Virus record (IMG/VR): IMGVR_UViG_3300030117_004414
Span: 1 to 22,579 of that record
DNA: 22,579 nt
Strand: one strand, 5' to 3'
Origin: a virus
Under the pieces are notes generated by a model. That model searched no databases. It worked only from the letters and a program-made list of their open reading frames with translations, and had not been told where the DNA came from. Below are positions 9,838 to 10,738 of this stretch, in pieces (position 1 is the first letter of the stretch; each line of letters starts with the position of its first letter). Position numbers and translations under genes: made by a program.

Positions 9838-9874
9838 AAAAAAGCAAACTCCAACAACCCATGTGTTGCTGGAG
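9838..9874 (-). terminator. Rho-independent terminator
   Basis: Arms 9849-9858 and 9865-9874 form a ten-pair stem with one mismatch and a six-base loop. On the minus strand the stem is followed by TTTGCTTTTTT (9848-9838). It ends the short unit carrying the 24-codon gene and the hli cluster and insulates the replisome operon. Confidence 0.85.
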
Positions 9875-9997: not shown

Positions 9998-10186
9998 TCA
10001 TGCTCCGTTAGGAGCATAAACTGGTTGTGTTATCCTGATACCTTTACCACGATCATCATCATCGTCATCATTATTAAATGCTCGAAGAATAAGTTCCACC
10101 AACACCAAAGCAGCCATAGGGTAAAAAATCCATATGACTGCTAAGAATGGTGATACTGAATCAGAGTCGGCTATAAAGTCGCTCAT
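9998..10186 (-). CDS. 62-residue membrane protein with poly-Asp tail
   Basis: A small protein beginning MSDFIADSDSVSPFLAVIWI, with one membrane helix, PFLAVIWIFYPMAALVLVEL (about residues 13-32), then a run of six aspartates (NNDDDDDD) and RGKGIRITQPVYAPNGA. The acidic run comes from a GAT/GAC trinucleotide stretch at about 10053-10075. It is downstream of the three hli genes in the same unit, suggesting a thylakoid-membrane role, but no photosystem family is recognised. It has a clear ATG, an untruncated frame and a stop just before a late promoter. Confidence 0.75.
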   Translation of the reverse strand: MSDFIADSDSVSPFLAVIWIFYPMAALVLVELILRAFNNDDDDDDRGKGIRITQPVYAPNGA

Positions 10187-10214: not shown

Positions 10215-10316
10215 TTATGTAAAGTATTTGAAATGAGTATATGCACCTACGATTGCCCAAAAAGCAACCATTGCAAACCTTCCATTGGCTCTCTGCCAAA
10301 TTGCTATGTTACTCAT
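10215..10316 (-). CDS. hli: Short high-light-inducible-like protein (HliC in this cluster)
   Basis: A 33-residue protein beginning MSNIAIWQRANGRFAMVAFW and ending AIVGAYTHFKYFT. It is a single Hli/LHC-type membrane helix with the chlorophyll-binding core reduced to QRANGRFAM: Asn11 and Arg13 are present but the usual Glu is Gln8. Canonical Hli proteins carry ExxNGR; the Glu pairs with an Arg of a partner helix. The ATG overlaps the stop of the preceding short hli (TAATG at 10318-10314), so the two are translated together. Hli proteins bind chlorophyll and carotenoid and dissipate excess light energy at photosystem II during infection. It is shorter than typical phage Hli proteins. Confidence 0.8.
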   Translation of the reverse strand: MSNIAIWQRANGRFAMVAFWAIVGAYTHFKYFT

Positions 10317-10423
10317 TAGAATATACCTGGAATGATTTGACCTGTGGTTGCATAAGCACCGAGTGCTGCTGTGATGCCTAGCATAGCCATCCAACCGTTA
10401 AACTTTTCTGCTTCTGGTGTCAT
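10316..10423 (-). CDS. hli: Short high-light-inducible-like protein (HliB in this cluster)
   Basis: A 35-residue protein beginning MTPEAEKFNGWMAMLGITAA and ending ALGAYATTGQIIPGIF. The Hli motif is present as EKFNGWMAM: Glu6 and Asn9 are kept but Arg is replaced by Trp11. Its C-terminus, GQIIPGIF, matches that of the longer Hli upstream (GQVMPGIF), suggesting duplication followed by loss of the N-terminal half. The stop shares a base with the next hli start (TAATG). Expected to insert as one helix in the thylakoid membrane and to act only as a dimer. About 48 bases separate it from the full-length hli gene, and no strong ribosome site is seen. Confidence 0.85.
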   Translation of the reverse strand: MTPEAEKFNGWMAMLGITAALGAYATTGQIIPGIF

Positions 10424-10471: not shown

Positions 10472-10681
10472 TCAAAAGATGCCAGGCATTACTTGTCCAA
10501 AAAGGACATAGTTGTGTACTGCAGCAAAGAAACCAATCATCGCCATGCGACCATTGAGTTGCTCTGCATTCTTCCAGTACCCTTGATAGTTCTCAACATA
10601 CTGCATAGGTGGCTCAGAACCAAACATGTTCTGTTTGCCATATTCAGTTGTTGTGTACTTCTTGGCAACTGATGAAGTCAT
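10472..10681 (-). CDS. hli: High-light-inducible protein (Hli)
   Basis: A 69-residue photoprotection protein of the LHC superfamily. The membrane helix carries the complete chlorophyll-binding motif AEQLNGRMAMIGFFAAVHNYV, with Glu40, Asn43 and Arg45, followed by a conserved FGQVMPGIF tail. The N-terminal 35 residues are polar with YTTTEYGKQNMFGSEPP, as in many marine phage Hli proteins. It would bind chlorophyll a and beta-carotene as a dimer in the host thylakoid and quench excess energy, keeping photosynthesis running during infection. A TTCACA/TATAAT promoter lies about 30-55 bases upstream, so it leads a unit that includes two shorter hli genes. Confidence 0.95.
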   Translation of the reverse strand: MTSSVAKKYTTTEYGKQNMFGSEPPMQYVENYQGYWKNAEQLNGRMAMIGFFAAVHNYVLFGQVMPGIF

Positions 10682-10708: not shown

Positions 10709-10738
10709 ATTATATAGCAAATCTAAAGACCATGTGAA
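10709..10738 (-). promoter_or_regulatory. Sigma70-type promoter of the hli unit
   Basis: On the minus strand TTCACA (10738-10733, five of six matches to TTGACA) is followed after 18 bases by TATAAT (10714-10709, perfect). The hli ATG is 28 bases downstream of the -10. Such a host-type promoter suggests early expression by host polymerase. Confidence 0.65.

Follow-up and report, generated by a model that had tools for sequence, protein, structure and literature searches.

Adjacent short Hli genes of a T4-like cyanophage lack the Arg and the Glu of the chlorophyll-binding motif, respectively, and may encode an asymmetric heterodimer

A T4-like cyanophage encodes two adjacent short high light inducible proteins (Hlis), A and B. 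The complete ExxNxR motif is absent from each of them (ExxNxW in A, QxxNxR in B), and all three residues are present jointly. The best-supported reading of the pair, to which we would give about an even chance on the sequences at hand, is an asymmetric A:B heterodimer. The two genes end a minus-strand run of three, full-length Hli, gene A and gene B (Table 1), on a 22.6-kb virus record, which was analysed over its whole length (the window). The record was assigned to a T4-like cyanophage by its gene content, which includes a clamp loader, a sliding clamp, SbcCD-like subunits, a helicase and the major head protein; a cyanophage outer-membrane-like protein is also encoded. An earlier note on this DNA had described two genes of 35 and 33 residues that share a TAATG stop/start, the residues EKFNGW in A and QRANGR in B, and an upstream full-length Hli keeping both Glu and Arg, all of which was confirmed. 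The N-terminus of this full-length Hli (TTTEYGKQNMF) resembles that of HliA, HliB and Psb34, although the match to the Psb34 NCBIfam profile is weak and below the cut-off (E=0.064). HliA and HliB are known to share the Psb34 N-terminus (PMC9458560). Seven promoter-like sites were found against 6.4 expected, so that the one preceding the hli run is weak evidence for a promoter. The hli region of phage P-SSM2 holds a protein (PSSM2_278) similar to the 62-aa product of the ORF downstream of B.

Table 1. Features of the hli region in the window.
Feature	Position	Strand	Match or remark
Promoter-like site TTCACA-18-TATAAT (11/12), 5' of the hli run	10738..10709	-	consensus match only
Full-length Hli, 69 aa, AEQLNGR (complete ExxNGR motif)	10681..10472	-	phrog_178, 3.3e-23
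Gene A, W-form short Hli (hli03 type), 35 aa	10423..10316	-	phrog_178, 2.4e-18
TAATG stop/start overlap, A/B junction	10314..10318	-	one A shared at 10316
Gene B, Glu-less short Hli (hli04 clade), 33 aa	10316..10215	-	phrog_178, 2.5e-4
ORF after B, 62 aa, including an acidic run (NNDDDDDDRGKGIRI)	9998-10186		phrog_7843
Terminator-like hairpin, well downstream of the hli run	9874..9849		consensus match only

Protein A (MTPEAEKFNGWMAMLGITAALGAYATTGQIIPGIF) carries E6, N9 and W11, with Trp11 at the Arg position, and protein B (MSNIAIWQRANGRFAMVAFWAIVGAYTHFKYFT) carries Q8, N11 and R13, with Gln8 at the Glu position. Both match the PHROG family 'high light inducible protein', and neither reaches the Pfam Chloroa_b-bind profile. 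Relatives were gathered with a joined A+B query and with DNA patterns. pN/pS was computed on 25 distinct homologous A/B pairs. The in-frame values are 0.12 (A) and 0.22 (B), whereas the two remaining frames of that strand give 1.1-1.9. Purifying selection thus acts on the reading frames of A and B, which shows that they are real genes and rules out chance ORFs. A sequencing or ORF-calling artefact might be suspected since these ORFs are very short and often unannotated, as in P-SSM5 and NATL1A-7; this reading is refuted by the in-frame selection on both genes and by the existence of more than 200 distinct copies, which leaves it a negligible probability. In the 25 pairs, B-type proteins are invariant at I6, W7, R9, A10, N11, G12 and R13 and further at F19, W20, Y26, T27, F29, Y31 and F32; position 8 is Q in 24 of them and N in one. 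The TGQxIPGxF signature that ends phage and Prochlorococcus Hlis is gone from B and a conserved YTHFKYF stands in its place. Other Glu-less forms combine QRANGR with a TGQIIPG end. The TAATG junction recurs in relatives of A/B, and Glu-less Hlis mostly overlap their upstream gene by 1 nt (at least 217 copies). A had been taken for a half-size form, but the W forms, the widespread family to which it belongs, normally have 35 aa, and A is not a degenerate half.

In order to follow the loss of Glu, we surveyed all viral loci fetched, counting copies as distinct on 120 nt around the motif; counts from the IMG/VR scan are those of samples. At least 216 distinct Glu-less genes were found. Among the matches listed, Arg is kept in 216 of 216, and the residues found in place of Glu are all uncharged (Q, L, F, N, I, V, S, W or T). 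None of the 216 listed is solitary: eight lie at contig edges and the remaining 208 directly follow a Glu-bearing Hli, which supports the earlier note on the Glu-less side. At the Arg position, the upstream neighbour has W in 162 of the 208 listed, Q in 18 of them and R in the other 28. Arg is thus replaced by W or Q in 180 of them (87%) and present in about 13%, a strong association that is clustered by descent. Neighbours were called with ATG starts, and some pairs with other starts therefore appear uncoupled. At five loci a Glu-less gene coupled to a W form has Trp in place of Glu (FWRSNGR or FWRANGR). Exact Glu-less patterns, which can miss variants, were found in none of 300 Prochlorococcus-family genomes, and a host origin of the Glu-less form was rejected on this count. 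A relative with EIR or DIR is present in 5 of the 300 genomes. At five Prochlorococcus loci the cassette runs from a W form through EIR to ENY; this hli04 relative keeps Glu and Arg and has Ile for Asn.

A is the W form of hli03, and B groups in the hli04 clade (T4-GC 270), which is widespread among marine cyanophages. In a tree of 73 Glu-less and EIR sequences and 18 complete Hlis, which rests on about 35 columns and is rough only, the 73 all fall in one clade (support 98/96), within which the B type of the window and hli04 proper form two separate subclades (100/98 each). As found for this clade, B lies directly after a Glu-bearing Hli, the TAATG overlap being usual. Asn is also often lost in the clade (LQR, EIR). 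The gene hli03 is a core cyanophage gene, while T4-GC 270 and 271 are sporadic (PMC3037559). In the annotated hli03-hli04-hli05 cassette of P-SSM2 and P-SSM7, the last hli03 is a W form (EKFNGW) that runs via TAATG into hli04 (FLRANGR), followed by hli05 (AEKWNGI). The cassettes of P-SSM2, P-SSM7 and P-SSM5 (T4-GC 267, 270, 271) thus resemble A/B in their W form, their TAATG and their Arg-keeping, Glu-less hli04. They differ in that hli04 has Leu at the Glu position and retains a TGxxIPG end, and in the presence of the third, Arg-less gene. In P-SSM5 the W-form hli03 and hli04 are present and unannotated, as is the Glu-less Hli of NATL1A-7. hli04 is already annotated as a gene cluster. In a literature search that covered few subscription papers, no account was found of cyanophage Hlis that have lost Glu or Arg, nor of a division of the two residues between adjacent genes.

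The loss of Arg was analysed in 80 viral contigs picked by the W-form motif alone, regardless of neighbours. The W gene is solitary in 25 of these and coupled to a complete Hli in 29, to a Glu-less Hli in 20 and to an EIR gene in one; three lie at contig edges, and in two contigs the neighbour is uncoupled. Arg is present in each of the 50 coupled partners. W forms are common to phages and hosts: P-SSP7 has one (HliP) alone at its hli locus, beside psbA, and Prochlorococcus has solitary ones at 37 loci away from contig ends. These proteins belong to the sequence family of A but, unlike A, have no Glu-less neighbour. Since the W form is an old family of hosts and phages, its Trp did not evolve as a counterpart of Q. 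Dependence is one-sided: B is always beside a Glu donor, whereas A needs no B. The description of the pair as an obligate two-part Hli was accordingly abandoned, the W form being often found alone or with a complete Hli; it is the Glu-less gene that never occurs alone among the matches listed. The expected co-occurrence of the W and Q changes may hold in the loose sense of W or Q upstream of most Glu-less genes; its strict version was rejected by the W-form scan and by the Arg-bearing partners. In hli05, the third gene of the cassette, a lost Arg is replaced by I, Q, Y or A, and by L in one host gene. After hli04, 64 hli05 genes are Arg-less and 11 Arg-bearing; directly after a W form without hli04, none of the genes in the hli05 position is Arg-less and 77 are Arg-bearing. 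Arg loss in hli05 is thus confined to cassettes with a preceding hli04, P-SSM5 being one example. In P-SSM4, an Hli with Gln in place of Arg has no Glu-less gene beside it.

Both losses were then compared over 660 unique phage Hli cores, of which 146 lack Arg and 123 lack Glu. No core lacks both, against 27 expected if the losses were independent. In a sample of coupled pairs, chosen by their stop/start pattern regardless of E or R, an Arg-less upstream gene is followed by a Glu-less gene in 28 pairs and by a Glu-bearing one in 43, while an Arg-bearing upstream gene is followed by a Glu-less gene in one pair and by a Glu-bearing one in 104 (Fisher p 4e-12, ignoring descent). The E and R traits follow a few gene families, which implies few independent events, and p-values that ignore descent are thus no proof of co-evolution. 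The overlap is also common among all phage Hlis in the sample (81 ENR-ENR pairs), so that adjacency alone is weak evidence. The complementary loss proposed in the earlier note stands in that no core lacks both residues and that Arg loss and Glu loss are associated; it fails in the strict sense, as 28 Glu-less genes, some encoding proteins of the B type, follow an Arg-bearing Hli. No natural A-B fusion protein was found, three flagged ORFs each having a single Hli core.

Pigment binding by Hlips takes place in dimers and relies on ExxNxR, which has been described as a buried dimerization zipper (PMC8617258). In an A:B heterodimer, whose subunits would probably be translationally coupled, one ion pair would link the helices, with its Glu from A and its Arg from B. 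The other site would have an uncharged contact between Gln of B and Trp of A instead of Glu-Arg, leaving no buried charge unmatched; A:A would bury two Glu without Arg, and B:B two Arg without Glu. In A, E6 and N9 would still serve as chlorophyll ligands; in B, N11 would do so, and perhaps the neutral Gln8 as well. Like other Hlips, the complex would scavenge and quench chlorophyll near photosystem II during infection. One-helix chlorophyll-binding heterodimers like the proposed one are known in Synechocystis (HliC/HliD, HliA/C and HliB/C), and the plant one-helix LHC-like proteins OHP1 and OHP2 also form a heterodimer (PMC12142464). Unlike A and B, HliC and HliD both carry the chlorophyll-binding motif and each also homodimerizes, and OHP1 and OHP2 both keep Glu, Asn and Arg (EIWNSR and EISNGR; Table 1 of PMC9916820). 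A sequence search for a solved Hli structure listed LHC-type antenna proteins as matches.

The A:B heterodimer is favoured by the constant Arg of Glu-less genes, their place next to a Glu donor and the absence of cores without both residues, by the association of upstream Arg loss with downstream Glu loss, by the Arg-bearing partners of the W forms, 20 of which are Glu-less, and by the restriction of hli05 Arg loss to the vicinity of hli04. It is also favoured by the fact that Hlips and OHPs act as dimers, including heterodimers, and that a single change of Glu or Arg abolishes dimerization of LIL3, while chlorophyll binding is merely weakened (PMC6320596). The frequent W forms that are solitary or next to a complete Hli argue against it, as do the minority of Glu-less genes that follow an Arg-bearing Hli, the Prochlorococcus EIR gene, whose Glu is left unmatched after a W form, and P-TIM40, in which the hli05 that goes with a Glu-less hli04 bears Arg. 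Moreover, LIL3 E171A or R176A alone does not interact even with the wild-type protein (PMC6320596), so that one remaining ion pair may not suffice. Alternatively, A and B would not pair mutually, each being a small HliC-like partner of the operon's full-length Hli or of a host Hlip, which would supply the missing Glu or Arg together with a CP47-docking N-terminus; each such dimer also keeps one ion pair. This reading accounts for solitary W forms and agrees with the known HliA/HliC and HliB/HliC heterodimers (PMC12142464), with the weak resemblance of the YGKQN-type N-terminus to Psb34 and with the ENQ-QNR viruses, in which the Glu-less gene directly follows a full-length Hli with Gln for Arg. 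A full-length Hli lies upstream in at least 146 Glu-less cassettes, but at least 38 lack it despite having room. This reading leaves unexplained why the Glu-less gene is mostly immediately adjacent to a W form and why Arg-less Hlis cluster beside it; we regard it as the main rival of the A:B heterodimer and as the less likely of the two.

B could also be a partly degenerate Hli that binds no chlorophyll at the Glu site and has another role, such as contacting a carotenoid or PSII or acting as a Psb34-like competitor, the E/R pattern then reflecting the history of a few families. The frequent loss in the hli04 clade of Asn, a residue that LIL3 needs for chlorophyll binding (PMC6320596), the exchanged C-terminus of B and the small number of independent events are compatible with this reading. 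Psb34, a small one-helix protein with an HliA/B-like N-terminus, provides a known relative from which the motif is wholly absent (PMC9458560), but it resembles the full-length Hli, and weakly, rather than A or B. An Arg kept without exception, the invariant NGR core of the window type and nine different uncharged substitutes for Glu are not what a lost interface would be expected to show, and degeneration of B appears improbable.

Extending the A:B heterodimer beyond this pair, we propose tentatively, and at somewhat less than an even chance, that cyanophages split the Glu-Arg pair of the Hli/LHC family between neighbouring genes, giving heterodimers with one ion pair in which hli04 and the window type would be Arg donors and the W form and hli05 Glu donors. 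To our knowledge, no such division of labour is known for the Hlips of cyanobacteria or the OHPs of plants. The light-harvesting antenna of plants, in which two helices of the same chain share two Glu-Arg pairs, is regarded as descended from Hlips. With hundreds of adjacent one-helix proteins from which one side of the pair is missing at a time, nature offers a mutational experiment on the part that the ion pair plays in dimer formation and in the binding of chlorophyll; it also bears on the question why phages have hli genes in such numbers.
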